Shown in pieces: positions 7,757-56,258 of a stretch of DNA of 64,000 nucleotides; within the stretch, counting starts at the first letter, position 1, and each line of letters starts with the position of its first letter. The DNA is from Alcaligenes faecalis (lineage in GTDB: Bacteria; Pseudomonadota; Gammaproteobacteria; Burkholderiales; Burkholderiaceae_B): assembly GCF_009497775.1 (NCBI RefSeq), contig NZ_CP031012.1:310001-374000 (forward strand), in the 5' to 3' direction. The notes below the pieces were generated by a model that saw nothing but the letters and a program-made list of their open reading frames with translations, made no database searches and had not been told where the DNA came from. The translations under genes were made by a program, and so were the position numbers.

Positions 7757-9373
7757 ATGGAACATGCACGCTGCGTGTTGATTGTTTTGGAAGAAGGCGA
7801 AGGCTTGCACTACTGGCTGGAGCAACTGCGGGTTTTCGGTACCAAGACAAGCGTTGTCAGATCCCTGGAGAAGGTCGCGGAGGCGCGTCTGAGCCAGGCT
7901 GATCTGCTGCTGTTTCCTGTCGAGACGGGCTACGTGCCTTTGATGGTGGCCAAGTTGCGCAATGACTTTGGTTCCCTGGGTATCGTGGCCGTTCAGTCCG
8001 GCCTGTCTGCCAGCGCCCGTGTGCAGCTGCTGCTGACGGGGGCGGACGCGTGTCTGGCACTGGATGTGCAAGTGCCCGAGCTGATGGCCTGGTGCCATGC
8101 TGTGCGTCGCCGGAATGTTTATGCTGCCGTGGGTGCCGCCCAGGCGATAGAAGAGGTTCAGGACCATAGCGGCCAGCAGGAATGGATCTTGCGCGACAAG
8201 GGCTGGACGCTGGTGGCTCCCAATGGGGTAGGCCTGGAGCTGACCCATAGCGAGCGTCAATTGATGGACGCCTTTATTCGCCATGCGGATGCCCGTTTCA
8301 GCCGTGAAGACCTGATGCGCGACAAGGGACTGGCTGCCAGCGACAGCCGCGCCGTGGATTCCCTGATCAGCCGTTTGCGCCGCAAGGCCAGCCAGGCTGG
8401 TGTGGCCTTGCCGATCAAATCGGTGCACGGCTGGGGCTATACCTTTACGGGCAAATTGATCGCCCAGCAAGAGCCACAAGACACGGAAATCATGGAGTTT
8501 TACGCGCCGCGTGACGATCAGGAGGCATCCCAGCCCACGCCGCTGGAACTCTTGCGTGCTTTGGAAACGCTGGATGTGCTGGACCCCCATGCCAGCGAAG
8601 CGCTGTCTTTCTCTTATCAGTTGCGGGTGGCGACCAGCACAGGTCAATACAGTGGTGTGGATGCTCAGGTGTTCTGGACCTCGCCCACAGGCTTGCGTTT
8701 GTCCTCGGACCTGGTGCTGCGCCATATGCCGGACTCGATCCACCGTCAGGCTTTGTGTGAATGGATGCTGCGCACCCTGATGGCTGACGTGCGTCGCTGG
8801 TGGCAGGAGTATTCGCTGCGTGCCAGCCATATCGGCCTGAAGTTGCCCATTGATATGCTGCTGCCTATGTACAAGCGCATGCCCAGCATGTTGCGTCAGT
8901 TCGAGCTGCAGCCTTGTTGTGTGGAGCTGGACTTGTTCAGCGACGAGGAGTTGGAAGAAACGCCGGAATTGATCCAGGCTTTGCAATTCCTGAAAGAGCA
9001 GGACATTCAGGTCTGGCTGACCAGTCCTGATATTGAAAACACCAAGCTCAACCGTTTGCGTGGCTGGCCGATCAGCGGGGTCAAGCTGGAAGCCGAGGTG
9101 ATTCAACGAGCCTGCCGTGAACCAACGTTCAAGGCTTTGCTGGAAACCGCGTGCCATTTGCTGAGCGAGCAGGGCTTTGAACTGGTCATCAAAGGCGTGG
9201 ATAACCTGGAACAGCGTGATCTGGCACTGAATCTGGAACTGGGTCACTACCAGGGGCGTCTGACCTCGGAATTGATGTCCGAAGACGGCTTCCTGCTGAC
9301 TTTGGCCAGTAGCGAACCCTCTTTTGGCCAAGGCCATGACGCATCCCGACGCCTGAGCGGTAGTGTTTTGTAA
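7757..9373 (+). CDS. receiver-like, winged-helix and degenerate EAL fusion regulator
   Basis: A 538-residue soluble protein in three parts. Residues 1-120 resemble a response-regulator receiver fold but lack the usual acidic pocket and phosphoacceptor Asp context. Residues about 135-235 are an OmpR-type winged helix (LTHSERQLMDAFIRH, DSRAVDSLISRLRRKA, IKSVHGWGYTF). Residues about 265-525 follow the EAL fold order but with catalytic motifs lost: the EAL position reads DAQVFW, ELTE reads VELDLFSDEEL, the DDFG loop reads LTSPDIENT, and AEGVE reads IKGVDN. It is thus likely a non-catalytic c-di-GMP sensor or structural EAL controlling a DNA-binding domain. RBS is weak (TAGGCG). No cognate kinase gene is adjacent. 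Confidence 0.8.
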   Translation: MEHARCVLIVLEEGEGLHYWLEQLRVFGTKTSVVRSLEKVAEARLSQADLLLFPVETGYVPLMVAKLRNDFGSLGIVAVQSGLSASARVQLLLTGADACLALDVQVPELMAWCHAVRRRNVYAAVGAAQAIEEVQDHSGQQEWILRDKGWTLVAPNGVGLELTHSERQLMDAFIRHADARFSREDLMRDKGLAASDSRAVDSLISRLRRKASQAGVALPIKSVHGWGYTFTGKLIAQQEPQDTEIMEFYAPRDDQEASQPTPLELLRALETLDVLDPHASEALSFSYQLRVATSTGQYSGVDAQVFWTSPTGLRLSSDLVLRHMPDSIHRQALCEWMLRTLMADVRRWWQEYSLRASHIGLKLPIDMLLPMYKRMPSMLRQFELQPCCVELDLFSDEELEETPELIQALQFLKEQDIQVWLTSPDIENTKLNRLRGWPISGVKLEAEVIQRACREPTFKALLETACHLLSEQGFELVIKGVDNLEQRDLALNLELGHYQGRLTSELMSEDGFLLTLASSEPSFGQGHDASRRLSGSVL

Positions 9374-51475: not shown

Positions 51476-51601
51476 GCTTTCAAGGATAGGGGCGAAATCC
51501 CGCTATGATTAGCCCCCGCTATTGCAAAACTGTATTGCTTTGGCGGGCTGGACGAATGTGAGCAATTAGTAACCAAATTAACAAACGTAATCTCCCTGAC
51601 C

Positions 51602-51617
51602 GCGCTAGCATTAGCGC
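51602..51617. promoter_or_regulatory. palindrome upstream of the hydroxylase-desaturase cluster
   Basis: GCGCTA-gcat-TAGCGC, a perfect 6-bp-arm inverted repeat, lies 22 bases before the first gene of the cluster. The surrounding 90 bases are AT-rich and promoter-like. It could be an operator; no regulator gene is adjacent. Confidence 0.45.
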
Positions 51618-51639: not shown

Positions 51640-52377
51640 ATGGGGCAGGCTTTTCAGGCCTTGAGCGTCTGGCAGGTAATGGGCGTGGGCTTATTGTTCT
51701 TCGGCGGCATTTACGTGCTGTTTGCACTGGGCACCTTGGCGCTGACACATTGGCTTTTACCCGCCTTGGGTTGGGGACGCCCCCTGGACACGCGCCCGCT
51801 GCGCCCTGGTCAGTTGCGCCGGGAATTGAAGCAATCGGGCACGGCCATTCTGATTTTTGGCACAGGCATGATTTTCCCCTGGGGCTTCTTGCAGCTAGGT
51901 TGGGCGCATCTGACGCCCAATGCCAGCGCGACCCGCATTGCTCTGGAAATTCTGGCTCTGGTGATCTGGAACGACGTGCATTTCTGGATCAATCATCGTC
52001 TCTTGCATACCCGCTGGCTGCGCCGTTACCACGGCCCGCATCATTCTTCCGTGGTGGTGACGCCATTTTCCACCTACAGCTTTCACCCTCTGGAGTCGAT
52101 CATGCTGGGCAATGTGATCTTGCTGCCCATGGTCGTGCATGATTTCAGCTTCTGGTCGCTTTTGTCCGTGCCCTTGTTCAGCCTGTTTTTCAATAGTATC
52201 GGCCACTCCAATTACGACTTTTTCCCCAATGTCTCCAGCCGCCATTGGCTGGCGGCCAGCCGTCGTCACCAGCGCCATCACGCGCAATACAACGGTAATT
52301 ACGGTTTTCAATTCAGCTTTATGGACCGCCTGTTTGGCACCCGCCTGCCCGATCGCCCCGAGGAGGCGCGGGGATGA
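51640..52377 (+). CDS. sterol desaturase/fatty acid hydroxylase-family membrane enzyme
   Basis: A 245-residue integral-membrane diiron enzyme. Seen: three His clusters in family order, HFWINHRLLH (114-123), HGPHH (131-135) and HQRHH (210-214), plus GHSNYDFFP and the FSFMDRLFGT ending typical of the family; four or five hydrophobic segments surround them. Members hydroxylate or desaturate sterols, fatty acids, or carotenoids. AGAGAGTGGA precedes ATG. It is the first gene of a tight cluster; its stop overlaps the next start (ATGA). Confidence 0.88.
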   Translation: MGQAFQALSVWQVMGVGLLFFGGIYVLFALGTLALTHWLLPALGWGRPLDTRPLRPGQLRRELKQSGTAILIFGTGMIFPWGFLQLGWAHLTPNASATRIALEILALVIWNDVHFWINHRLLHTRWLRRYHGPHHSSVVVTPFSTYSFHPLESIMLGNVILLPMVVHDFSFWSLLSVPLFSLFFNSIGHSNYDFFPNVSSRHWLAASRRHQRHHAQYNGNYGFQFSFMDRLFGTRLPDRPEEARG

Positions 52378-53288
52378 GCGCTGCGTGGCGTTTGCGTAAG
52401 CCGCGCGATTGGCAAAGCCTGCTGTATCTGATTGCCTACCCGGTGCTGGTGGTCGCGCTGTGGCGGGGTGGTTTCTCCTGGATTCTGTACGGCTTGCTGC
52501 TGTTTCTGACGCTGGGCATAGGCGTCATCAACCACAACCATCATCATCTGCGCATGTGGCGCGGCCGTCTTCCCAATCGCTTGACGGATTTCTGGCTGAC
52601 GCTGGTGCAAGGCCACCCCGCTTGCGTGTTCTGGCCTGCGCATGGGCGCAATCACCATCGCTACAAACATGGCGAAAAAGATGTGGCCCGCACCTACCGT
52701 TTCTGGCGGGGCGACACCAACGACACGCTGGGCTGGCTGATGCACCCCTTTGAGGCCGTGCCTGCGCTGTACCCCACGATTTTTGGTTGGCTGGGCAGTC
52801 TGCGCCGCCATTGGCCGGGTGTCTGGGCCTATTGCATGGCGCAATACGGCGTGTGGTTGGGAAGCTGGGGCCTGGCCCTGGCGCTGGACCCGATGAAAGG
52901 CTTTTTGTACGTCATCCTGCCGCAGCTGCATGGCTTGCACTGGCTGCTGACCACGAATTATCTGCAACATGCTCATGCCGATGGCAGCCATGAAGGCCGG
53001 CATGGCGAGCAACTGGCCTATGCCCGTAACTTCGAGGGCCTGGTCAATCCCTTGCTCTTTAATATCGGCCTGCATGTGGCCCACCATGAACATTCACGTG
53101 CGCACTGGTCCGAGCTGACACGGCTGCACGATACCGAATACCGAGCCCGCACCCCGGACGCCTTGAACGAAGGGGGGCTGGTGCCTTATATGCTGCGTGT
53201 TTTTGTGCTGGGCCTGTTTGTGCCCCGCTACCGCAGTCAATCCTTGAACGCCGTGGGCCAGACGGAGCGTCGGCGTGATTCCGTGTAA
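52374..53288 (+). CDS. membrane fatty acid desaturase-like protein
   Basis: A 304-residue membrane protein with the three His boxes of acyl-lipid desaturases: HNHHH (54-58), HGRNHH (90-95) and HVAHHEH (234-240), and long hydrophobic segments between. A further HAHADGSHEGRHGEQ (199-213) is His-rich. By family it inserts a double bond (or a hydroxyl) in an acyl chain using O2 and an electron donor. Overlaps the preceding hydroxylase gene by four bases and is followed after 14 bases by the synthase fusion. Confidence 0.87.
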   Translation: MSAAWRLRKPRDWQSLLYLIAYPVLVVALWRGGFSWILYGLLLFLTLGIGVINHNHHHLRMWRGRLPNRLTDFWLTLVQGHPACVFWPAHGRNHHRYKHGEKDVARTYRFWRGDTNDTLGWLMHPFEAVPALYPTIFGWLGSLRRHWPGVWAYCMAQYGVWLGSWGLALALDPMKGFLYVILPQLHGLHWLLTTNYLQHAHADGSHEGRHGEQLAYARNFEGLVNPLLFNIGLHVAHHEHSRAHWSELTRLHDTEYRARTPDALNEGGLVPYMLRVFVLGLFVPRYRSQSLNAVGQTERRRDSV

Positions 53289-53302
53289 TCAGGAGTATTT
53301 CT

Positions 53303-55213
53303 ATGCCCGTGGCCTTTGAGCACGTTGTTATCCATCAGGCCCAGTGGTTTATGCCCGGCGAGCCGGTCGATAACACCACCATGGATAACTTTATTGCCCC
53401 CTTGAATCGTATTTCGGGGCGCATCAAGCAGCGCATTCTGGCCGAAAACGGTATTCAGCAGCGTTACTACGCCATTGGTGAAGATGGCAGCACGCGCTGG
53501 AGCAATACGGCCATGGCCGCCAATGCCATCCGCAGTTGCCTGGAGCAGGCGGGGCTGGGTATGGCCGATATTGGCCTGCTGGCCAGCGGCTCGTCGGGTG
53601 GCGATTTGCTGATGCCCGGTTTTGCCAACGCGATTCAGGGTGAACTGGCGGCTCCCCCGCTGGAAGTGCATTCCGTACACGGGATTTGCGCCGCGGGTGT
53701 CACGGCTTTGCAGACAGTTGCCCAAGGCATCGAGCTGGGGGCGCATCGTCATGGCATGGCCGTGGCCAGTGAAATGCCTTCGCGCCTGTTCCGCCGCTCG
53801 CGCTTTGCCTCGCAGGATTATCAAGCGGACTTTGATGCGCACTTCCTGCGCTGGATGCTGTCCGATGGCGCGGGTGCGGCTTTGCTCAGCCATCAGGATC
53901 AGGTGCTGCCCACCACCCAGCCCGGTGTGCGTTTGCGCCTGCGCTGGATTCATCAGAAATCCTTCTCCGGTGACTACCCTGTTTGCATGCAGCTAGGTGC
54001 CGCACGCGACTCCACGCGTAGCCATTTGGATTACGATTCCTGGGCCGACGCCGAGCAGGCCGGTGCCTTGTCCTTGCGCCAGGACATTCGCCTGCTGCCG
54101 CATTTGTTCGACATCGGCATTCATGAGTACGTGAAACTGGTGCGTGATGGTTGGGTAGACCCGGAGCGCATCAGTCATTTCCTGTGCCATTACTCGTCCG
54201 AAAAATTCATCCCCGTGGTGGCCGATCTGCTGGAACAGGCAGGTCTGGGCATTCCTGCCGAACGTTGGTACAGCAATCTGCGTTGGCGCGGCAATACGGG
54301 CGCAGCCTCCATCCTGATCATGCTGGCCGAGTTCATGCGCGACCGGACCTTGACGCCGGGCGAGCAGATCCTGTGCTACGTGCCCGAGTCGGGCCGCTTC
54401 ATGACGGCCTACATGCTGCTGGAAGTGGAAGCCTGCGATGCGCCGGCTCCCGCCGTGTCCTACCCGTCTGCCAAGCAATCGGTCGCTGCGTCCTCCGATC
54501 AGGTAGATATTGCTCCCCCGCATGACCCCGCCACGGCCCCGCAAGGCTTGCGCGATCTGCTGACGCAATTGGCTCCCATCTGGCACGACTATCGCTCCCA
54601 GGTGTGGCGCACTCCCTTGTTGCGCAGCCTGCACGATGGCTCGATTCGCATACAGGACTATCAAAAGTGGATGGCAGACTGGATTCCCCAAGTACGCGAA
54701 GGGGCCAAGTGGATGCGCGAAGCCTGCGACTCCCTGTCGCCCGCCTACGCACCGCTGGCCGAGCTGATTCGTCTGCATGCGGGCGAAGAACAGGACGACT
54801 TCAAAATTCTGTTCGAGGATTATCAACATGCGGGCGGCACTGCGACCGAGATCGAGCAACTGAGCCGTAATCCCGGCGGTCAGGCCCTGAACTCCTACCT
54901 GCATGCCCTGGCGGCCAGTCAGGACCCGATTGGCTTGCTGGGTGCGATTTATATTATTGAAGGCACCGGCCAGCGCATTGTGCCCGCCTTGTTGCCTCTG
55001 CTGAAATCCTCGCTGTCGCTGGAACCGAATATGTACCGTTTCCTGCACTATCACGGCATGAACGACGAGCATCACCTGGCCCGTTGGCTGGTGGCGGTGG
55101 AGCTGGCTCTGGATTGCGATGAAACAGGTCGCGCCGAGCAGATTATTATTGAAACCGCACGTCGTACCGCCGCCCTGTACCTGATGCAGTTCCAATACGC
55201 GAAAGAGTTTTAA
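53303..55213 (+). CDS. ketoacyl synthase III fused to haem-oxygenase-like diiron oxidase
   Basis: A 636-residue two-domain protein. Residues 1-375 are a FabH-like condensing enzyme: active Cys129 in VHGICAAG, His296 in LCHYSSEKF and Asn331 in WRGNTGAAS form a complete triad. A Pro/Ala/Ser linker (about 378-415) leads to residues 415-636, a haem-oxygenase-like diiron domain with candidate ligands His492, Glu495/496, Glu553 in YIIEGTGQ, and H584/D588/H590-591 in HYHGMNDEHHLARW, the fold of UndA-like oxidases. It may condense an acyl unit and then oxidise the product. AGGAG is seven bases upstream. No carrier protein gene is nearby. Confidence 0.85.
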   Translation: MPVAFEHVVIHQAQWFMPGEPVDNTTMDNFIAPLNRISGRIKQRILAENGIQQRYYAIGEDGSTRWSNTAMAANAIRSCLEQAGLGMADIGLLASGSSGGDLLMPGFANAIQGELAAPPLEVHSVHGICAAGVTALQTVAQGIELGAHRHGMAVASEMPSRLFRRSRFASQDYQADFDAHFLRWMLSDGAGAALLSHQDQVLPTTQPGVRLRLRWIHQKSFSGDYPVCMQLGAARDSTRSHLDYDSWADAEQAGALSLRQDIRLLPHLFDIGIHEYVKLVRDGWVDPERISHFLCHYSSEKFIPVVADLLEQAGLGIPAERWYSNLRWRGNTGAASILIMLAEFMRDRTLTPGEQILCYVPESGRFMTAYMLLEVEACDAPAPAVSYPSAKQSVAASSDQVDIAPPHDPATAPQGLRDLLTQLAPIWHDYRSQVWRTPLLRSLHDGSIRIQDYQKWMADWIPQVREGAKWMREACDSLSPAYAPLAELIRLHAGEEQDDFKILFEDYQHAGGTATEIEQLSRNPGGQALNSYLHALAASQDPIGLLGAIYIIEGTGQRIVPALLPLLKSSLSLEPNMYRFLHYHGMNDEHHLARWLVAVELALDCDETGRAEQIIIETARRTAALYLMQFQYAKEF

Positions 55214-55216
55214 GTC

Positions 55217-56143
55217 ATGGATCAAATCCCGGATTTTTTAAGCAAGCCGCATGACCCGCAGGATCCCAACCCCTGGCGGGCCCTGTATCTGGATCGCAGC
55301 ACGCCCCTGCCTGATGAAGTGAAGCAGGCCTGGCTGGCCGATTCCAGCTCTTCGTCACGCCAGTATTTGCTGCCGTTCTTGCGGCCACTGGCACGCTTGA
55401 TGATTGTGCTGATTCAGGTCGTTAAAACCTTTTTGCCGCGCAAATGGTCGCACTCGGGCCTGTTGCACCGCATTCTGGTGTGGGGCTTGAAGCGTTTTGT
55501 CTCGCCCCAGGCCAACTGGCTGATTCTGCGTCACTTCCATCTGGGTTCACAGGTGCTGGCCTTTATTGCTGCCAACTCGCCCACCAAGGTGCCGACCACG
55601 CCGCTGACGCCCATGAACATCGACGAATTGCGCGATCACACCTTTGTGAAGCACGATTTGAATCTGTTCAATTTCGTGATCCGACTGAATCAGACCTTGC
55701 GGGACAATAATCAGGAAATCGGCCCGCCGGAGCGGGTGGACTTCTCCATGATTCAACCCGTGCCCCTGGCGCTGGACGATATGCCGCAAGGCCCGCTGAA
55801 CAAGATGGACCTGCAAAGTGCCATTGAACTGTTCACGCCCTTGTACCAACTGCTGCTGACCGATAACGACTTCTGGCGTGCGGCCAATTCCTTGCAACTG
55901 GACGAGACGATCGGGATTTATGCCGCCAAGATTTTGCAGGCGCCCGAGCATCTGATTCTGGTGAACAATGGCCACCCTCTGGTGCCCATGTCGACCTTGC
56001 GAGCAGGCTACCGACTGGTGTTGCACGGCTTGTCGACAGAGATGCTGCATAGCCTGCTGAATCAGATGAAGCAGGCGCAAGCGCAGCAGGAAATTGGCCC
56101 AGCGCCAGACTTGGCGCAGGACAATAGCGCAGCTTCTCCTTAA
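55217..56143 (+). CDS. unrecognised protein of the hydroxylase-desaturase cluster
   Basis: A 308-residue protein I cannot place in a named family. Seen: a polar N-terminus with DRSTPLPDEVKQAWLADSSSSSRQYLLPFLRPLARLMIVLIQVVK, an amphipathic or membrane-bound helix around 50-70, a second hydrophobic part about 85-115, then a mostly soluble helical region with PMNIDELRDHTFVKHDLNLFNFVIRLNQ. Its start is three bases past the fusion gene's stop, so it is co-translated with it. It could be a membrane-associated partner or acyl-handling protein. A terminator follows. Confidence 0.8.
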   Translation: MDQIPDFLSKPHDPQDPNPWRALYLDRSTPLPDEVKQAWLADSSSSSRQYLLPFLRPLARLMIVLIQVVKTFLPRKWSHSGLLHRILVWGLKRFVSPQANWLILRHFHLGSQVLAFIAANSPTKVPTTPLTPMNIDELRDHTFVKHDLNLFNFVIRLNQTLRDNNQEIGPPERVDFSMIQPVPLALDDMPQGPLNKMDLQSAIELFTPLYQLLLTDNDFWRAANSLQLDETIGIYAAKILQAPEHLILVNNGHPLVPMSTLRAGYRLVLHGLSTEMLHSLLNQMKQAQAQQEIGPAPDLAQDNSAASP

Positions 56144-56154
56144 GTGTGAGGCAG

Positions 56155-56185
56155 AAAAAAACGGCTCATACATGAGCCGTTTTTC
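56155..56185. terminator. terminator ending the four-gene cluster
   Basis: AAAAAAACGGCTCA, 4-base loop, TGAGCCGTTTTT: an 8-bp stem with A and T tracts on both sides, working in both directions, 11 bases past the last cluster gene. Confidence 0.93.
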
Positions 56186-56258
56186 TGAGCCACGGATTCC
56201 CTGCCAAAAGATGCAGAGTGGCATCGAAACCAGTTCTTATAGAGAACGCGGCTATTTC

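Follow-up and report, generated by a model that had tools for sequence, protein, structure and literature searches.

A window of 64,000 nucleotides from the single 4,159,911-bp contig of Alcaligenes faecalis, which denotes here the whole stretch of DNA analysed, contains four tightly packed genes on the plus strand (A to D, positions 51640-56143 according to the list of open reading frames (ORFs) and their coordinates) that form a real, conserved and uncharacterised cluster. Its central gene encodes a ketosynthase (KS) of the StlD/DarB type fused to a haem-oxygenase-like dimetal-oxidase-type (HDO) domain and is followed by a gene for a DUF6999 protein. We see about an even chance that the cluster encodes an uncharacterised pathway of acyl condensation and oxidation, sister to the DarA/DarB route to dialkylresorcinols (DAR). 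As judged from the sequences, it appears to be a branch sister to the DAR pathway, with an O2-using metalloenzyme in the place of DarA, a reading drawn from the finding that KS loci without HDO carry a DarA-like protein and loci with adjacent KS, HDO and DUF6999 (trio loci) do not. The strongest new points are that an HDO is found where DarA would be expected, that DUF6999 is regularly present, that the membrane proteins can be exchanged and that the HDO metal motif contains an Asp; gene content, family membership, linkage, the lack of a nearby DarA-like protein and the conservation of catalytic residues are direct observations.

51640-52377, plus strand: gene A, membrane fatty-acid hydroxylase superfamily, 245 aa (PF04116, 86.2 bits; His boxes)
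52374-53288, plus strand: gene B, membrane fatty-acid desaturase, 304 aa (PF00487, 66.7 bits; His boxes)
53303-55213, plus strand: gene C, 636-aa fusion of StlD/DarB-type ketosynthase and HDO domain (Pfam, fold, alignments)
53303-54442, plus strand: KS domain of C, residues 1-380 (triad C129, H296, N331)
54500-55210, plus strand: HDO domain of C (PF14518, 39.1 bits; candidate metal ligands)
55217-56143, plus strand: gene D, DUF6999 protein, 308 aa (PF22523, 443 bits)

Ketosynthase type and the DarA partner

StlD/DarB-type ketosynthases close 1,3-cyclohexanedione rings for DAR. By fold and catalytic triad the KS domain of gene C, which gives a Pfam match to ACP_syn_III_C of 38 bits, is of this type: StlD is the closest solved structure, the Cys-His-Asn triad C129/H296/N331 is invariant in 83/83 aligned rows, and 31 positions are common to this domain, StlD and the DAR ketosynthases and absent from FabH. 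The original prediction had described a FabH-like condensing enzyme of the generic KASIII kind with an intact triad; the triad stands, but the FabH models are far from being reached (TIGR00747, 44.4 bits with a cut-off of 292.1; PRK09352, 67.8 with 249). On the models of the StlD/DarB family itself the domain scores below the cut-offs, with 313.6 bits on NCBIfam NF005293 (cut-off 450) and 248.5 bits on the DarB model NF053539 (cut-off 550). Two further trio ketosynthases obtain 321.7 and 398.2 bits on NF005293, also under 450, and two of the 12 HDO-less ketosynthases that were scanned obtain 582.4 and 561.7 bits on the same model and 477 and 448.3 bits, under the cut-off, on the DarB model.

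In the published cluster, as far as the available text goes, darA adjoins darB, the assigned functions being DAR aromatase for DarA and DAR cyclase for DarB (PMC3949708), and darA plus darB yielded DAR in a heterologous host (available part of PMC3992019). A KS match at E <= 1e-20 occurred in 20/398 genomes of the phylum sample, among them 9 trio genomes, and 12 loci had a KS without an HDO. Directly upstream of the KS, all 12 of these HDO-less loci encode similar proteins about 300 residues long, designated DarA-like on the basis of their position beside the KS and of DarG and DarH following in L124, the sole locus with other neighbours scanned. In tblastn searches with two DarA-like proteins, covering up to about 9 kb on each side of a locus and less at cut contigs, such a protein was found in 0/104 loci, 103 of them trio loci (100 distinct places), as opposed to 12/12 HDO-less loci. 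Equally, a search of the whole genome of the window, which had no positive control of its own, gave no DarA-like match. A Streptomyces relative of the KS has such a protein. A tree of the ketosynthases places the HDO-less group on one side of a branch (support 100/99); the trio ketosynthases may form a single clade, which the AU test does not reject (p 0.54), and L098 forms a long branch placed beside the HDO-less group. In one genome, G379, the two systems coexist: a DAR-type locus that includes a DarA-like gene, and a trio locus (L093, L130).

The same observations might be accommodated by a true DAR pathway, in which the KS would give a cyclohexanedione and the HDO, together with D, would use O2 to aromatise it, in a two-electron oxidation, to a 2,5-dialkylresorcinol, with the 'resorcinol' label of antiSMASH being right. 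The StlD/DarB type of the KS and the antiSMASH calls are in line with such a pathway, as is the lack of a counterpart to the assigned aromatase DarA (available text of PMC3949708) in a cluster where an oxidase is present. We nevertheless consider it rather unlikely, as the KS remains under the family cut-offs, an HDO aromatase is not found in the available part of PMC13108848, a review on HDOs, the DAR gene table in the available part of PMC3949708 lists nothing that corresponds to DUF6999 or to the membrane enzymes, and G379 retains both systems.

The oxidase domain and its metal site

The C-terminal domain of gene C matches Haem_oxygenas_2 (PF14518) above the cut-off of 28.9 bits in the same protein as the KS. 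The predicted fusion of a haem-oxygenase-like diiron domain to a condensing enzyme is thereby borne out with respect to fusion and family; the canonical metal motif is not found. A profile built from 28 HDO domains matches the haem-oxygenase-like protein 3dde with E 1.7e-10, MboA with only E 0.69 and, in addition, one unrelated designed helical protein. Residues 411-636 are helical in the structural model of gene C, with block pLDDT values of 76-95. The residue numbers of UndA provided the first guide to the ligand positions. Candidate metal ligands are E496, D499, E553, H584, D588 and H591, with E466 and H492 likewise invariant.

The metal motif of HDOs reads E-H-E-H-(D/E)-H in the available text of PMC11363339, where the 150 largest HDO groups were surveyed with about 85% of those analysed displaying the motif and about 9% giving no strong prediction; the group of gene C may belong to these 9%. 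Five of the six motif positions (E, E and H-x3-D-x2-H) are retained and invariant in the 83-row alignment, so that the expected metal site is largely kept, but the second position is Asp (D499) in 83/83 and in 28/28 rows, in a register derived from the profile alignment to 3dde, which has His in that column. The D588 column contains one Asn (P0323) among the 28 aligned HDO domains. From its position one turn ahead of E496, H492 might supply the missing His.

An Asp for the canonical first His in all rows would also suit an HDO-like domain that is not a metalloenzyme but binds or cyclises the KS product, with A and B alone performing oxidation, and a metal-free member of the HDO fold, PqqC, is known (available parts of PMC11363339 and PMC13108848). 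The five invariant positions that fit the dimetal pattern argue against this alternative, as does the absence of both A and B from 10/24 trio genomes, and we hold it to be very improbable.

A distant HDO relative is encoded in another type of operon, found on one plasmid each of Citrobacter and Vibrio (L168:3862-8028 and L169:3862-8013) and annotated as thermostable hemolysin, AMP-binding protein, iron-containing redox enzyme, SDR and hypothetical protein; this relative has 24-25% identity to the Colwellia HDO and 22% to the HDO of the window.

The three-enzyme core and the proposed pathway

The tight same-strand arrangement of the original prediction, with an overlap of 4 bp between A and B and gaps of 14 bp between B and C and 3 bp between C and D, agrees exactly with the coordinates and recurs as A-B-C-D in the same order and strand in 79/80 relatives, L010 lacking B. 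These relatives are the best 80 of 202 confirmed ones and all appear to belong to Burkholderiales. In a wider sample, KS, HDO and DUF6999 are adjacent in 24/24 genomes with a full-length DUF6999, a range that takes in Burkholderiales, the Colwellia family with Colwellia itself, and a single genome from another class; the two sets are not independent, with G379, G834 and G927 corresponding to L067, L038 and L029. A single reading frame encodes both KS and HDO in the window and in the 13 further Burkholderiales among the 24, and separate genes do so in L098 and L099. The proteins of G368 are 100% identical to those of Colwellia echini, and the gammaproteobacterial four-gene arrangement is also found on a plasmid of Pseudoalteromonas sp. 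THAF3. A triple fusion of desaturase, ketosynthase and oxidase in Achromobacter was rejected, the tblastn match having overrun the desaturase stop; in 19/19 suspected loci gene B stops 33-35 bp ahead of C.

Gene D, initially considered unrecognised, is a DUF6999 protein (443 bits with a cut-off of 27), a family for which one search yielded 3690 homologues (E <= 0.001). Its predicted structure is all-helical, and a structural match was sought and not found. Residues H106, H146, D147, H270 and E275 are invariant in the DUF6999 alignment. DUF6999 occurs in 9/398 genomes of the phylum sample, 10/147 of the G368 family and 13/250 of the order of the window; two samples drawn from the orders to which G223 and G368 belong had 1/118 and 1/119, just these two genomes again, so that most genomes are without DUF6999. 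For Caulobacter vibrioides, the search control reports a DUF6999 protein. A DUF6999 remnant of 37 model positions is seen in G660 (L151, about 8909-9034), where KS and HDO are absent from the stretch examined, an apparent loss of the gene set. The G223 locus (L098:8120-9884) is a mosaic, with its DUF6999 closer to the Burkholderiales type (55% vs 26%) and its HDO closer to the Colwellia type (49% vs 33%).

The two membrane His-box enzymes are confirmed by their family matches (FA_hydroxylase 86.2 and FA_desaturase 66.7 bits), and the His-box residues are kept in 80/81 aligned rows of gene A and in 78-79/80 of gene B. Across the 24 trio genomes, however, constant linkage holds for the core three genes only: A and B occur together in 11/24 trio genomes (G000, G082, G170, G196, G350, G379, G769, G810, G834, G927 and G928) and A without B in G840 and G864. 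Among the ten trio genomes lacking both, nine carry another His-rich membrane protein and G223 none, KS-HDO-DUF6999 being followed there by an MFS-acyltransferase-AMP-binding protein. Gene B gave no match in L010, L163 and L165. All nine loci of the G368 family (L143-L150, L099) encode a membrane protein of 186-189 aa directly upstream of the KS (e.g. L099:11444-12007). This protein has His, Glu and Asp at invariant positions, matches no Pfam family and may be a membrane metalloenzyme of a new kind. G316, a genome of 2.2 Mb, has only a shortened desaturase devoid of the last His box (L097:10077-10760), with C and D intact. As the membrane proteins vary from A and B to the 186-189 aa protein to none and the trio remains constant, the core consists of three enzymes, KS, HDO and DUF6999, with interchangeable membrane proteins.

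We infer every reaction of the pathway as well as ring, substrates, metal and the role of D. The KS domain would load a fatty-acyl thioester on Cys129, condense it with an acyl or beta-keto-acyl thioester from fatty-acid metabolism and, like StlD and DarB, probably close a 1,3-cyclohexanedione-type ring. The fused HDO domain, with a dimetal site and O2, would then oxidise the KS product and thus take the place of the aromatase DarA, with the DUF6999 protein as a putative regular partner in oxidation or product handling. Hydroxylase A and desaturase B might tailor the alkyl chain in the membrane as lineage-specific additions.

Several points weigh against such an O2-dependent sister branch. The low trio KS scores (314-398 bits vs 450) may place the conservation of ring closure in doubt, and the first-His-to-Asp change could mean another metal, a single metal or no O2 chemistry. 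In fold searches with the full-length gene C model the matches listed concern the KS only, the C-terminal part being all-helical. None of the library models names the DarA-like protein, which owes its designation to position and neighbours, and in G379, which has both systems, the trio does not merely substitute for the DAR pathway. Equally, no ACP, thioesterase or CoA ligase that might point to the source of acyl units is present among the ten window proteins scanned. On the other hand, a linear route close to the original prediction, with the KS providing a beta-keto acid or long beta-diketone and UndA-like cleavage by the HDO yielding an alkene, aldehyde or shortened chain, appears improbable: since the KS is of the StlD/DarB type, ring formation as in DAR biosynthesis is a nearer precedent than the UndA-type alkene formation invoked there.

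If the sister-branch reading is correct, the DUF6999 family gains a pathway and the HDO repertoire gains ring-forming ketosynthase chemistry together with a testable metal-site variant. Removal of C or D is predicted to cause the loss of one defined lipid or small molecule. More tentatively, and with a greater share of doubt, the cluster might stand for a new and widespread lipid class, made by an StlD-type KS, an Asp-for-His HDO replacing the aromatase and a DUF6999 protein of new fold; no earlier case of an HDO that acts on a ring made by a ketosynthase is known to us.

Flanking elements and relation to known systems

A palindrome and a terminator-like hairpin, in line with the original prediction, flank the cluster:

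51602-51617, no strand assigned: palindrome GCGCTAGCATTAGCGC, 22 nt 5' of the gene A ATG (sequence scan)
56152-56187, no strand assigned: terminator-like hairpin with A and T runs on either side (folding of segment 56140-56195)

The palindrome is possibly an operator or a 5' leader hairpin. A conserved operator was rejected, the exact GCGCTAGCATTAGCGC being found in just 2/80 relatives, both Alcaligenes. The hairpin within 56140-56195 folds with -22.7 kcal/mol (z -5.76 vs shuffles); a consensus scan did not report it, with promoter- and terminator-like sites no commoner than in shuffles, and a conserved terminator was likewise rejected, a simple hairpin test 3' of D being positive in 9/79 loci. 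A block 5' of gene A, GCAATTAGTAACCAAATTNACAAACGTAA (window 51562-51590), is common to the window and L003-L005, all Alcaligenes with a gene C 95-97% identical to that of the window, and is a possible regulatory site.

A wider conserved cluster was rejected as well. In a comparison of 31 loci, based on the top 25 ORF groups with one example each inspected, the groups in more than 10 loci were exemplified on or against the four genes; the widest other group was an ABC-transporter ATPase (10/31 loci), and pirin, TerC and LysR were not apparent among the examples. One ORF group of three comprises ORFs in L012 and L050 together with the AMP-binding protein encoded in L098. The neighbours in the window are ordinary according to library scans, comprising a TerC-CBS protein, an ORF without family, a pirin, DUF1330, a class IV aminotransferase and a LysR protein. 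Pirins often carry the name quercetin 2,3-dioxygenase.

That no described pathway has this gene set agrees with the open-licence literature, in which no characterisation of the gene set, of DUF6999 or of the KS-HDO combination was found, and the main text of PMC13108848, a review on HDOs, contains none of the words 'fused', 'fusion' and 'ketosynthase'; on the other hand, the locus had very probably already been flagged as 'resorcinol' by antiSMASH. In the parts of the sources available, such clusters are given for A. faecalis Mc250 (PMC7643998), for A. faecalis MB207 with quercetin 2,3-dioxygenase and LysR in the list, and for Achromobacter mucicolens IA with DarB as core gene. These calls very probably represent this locus or its orthologue, since the KS of the window is the single StlD/DarB-type KS found in the genome and the MB207 entries match the neighbours described above.

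Compared with the membrane enzymes of PF04116 and PF00487, genes A and B share family match and His boxes, and the library match to the ornithine lipid hydroxylase OlsE is a weak one (24.4 bits, cut-off 475). With HDOs such as UndA, SznF, BesC, AetD and MboA, gene C shares PF14518 and the retained ligand positions, but differs in having E-D-E-H-D-H for the motif of PMC11363339 (available text) and in being joined to a ketosynthase. With the DAR and StlD systems the cluster has the class of condensing enzyme, the intact triad and StlD as closest structure in common; it differs in KS scores under the family cut-offs, in the absence of a DarA-like protein from the stretches searched and in having an HDO, either fused or encoded next to the KS, a DUF6999 protein and, optionally, membrane enzymes. 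The antiSMASH 'resorcinol' label is a computed one, with gene set and missing DarA undiscussed in the available parts of those sources, and if the sister-branch reading holds, it covers in Alcaligenes and Achromobacter a separate branch that depends on O2 and has a product of its own.
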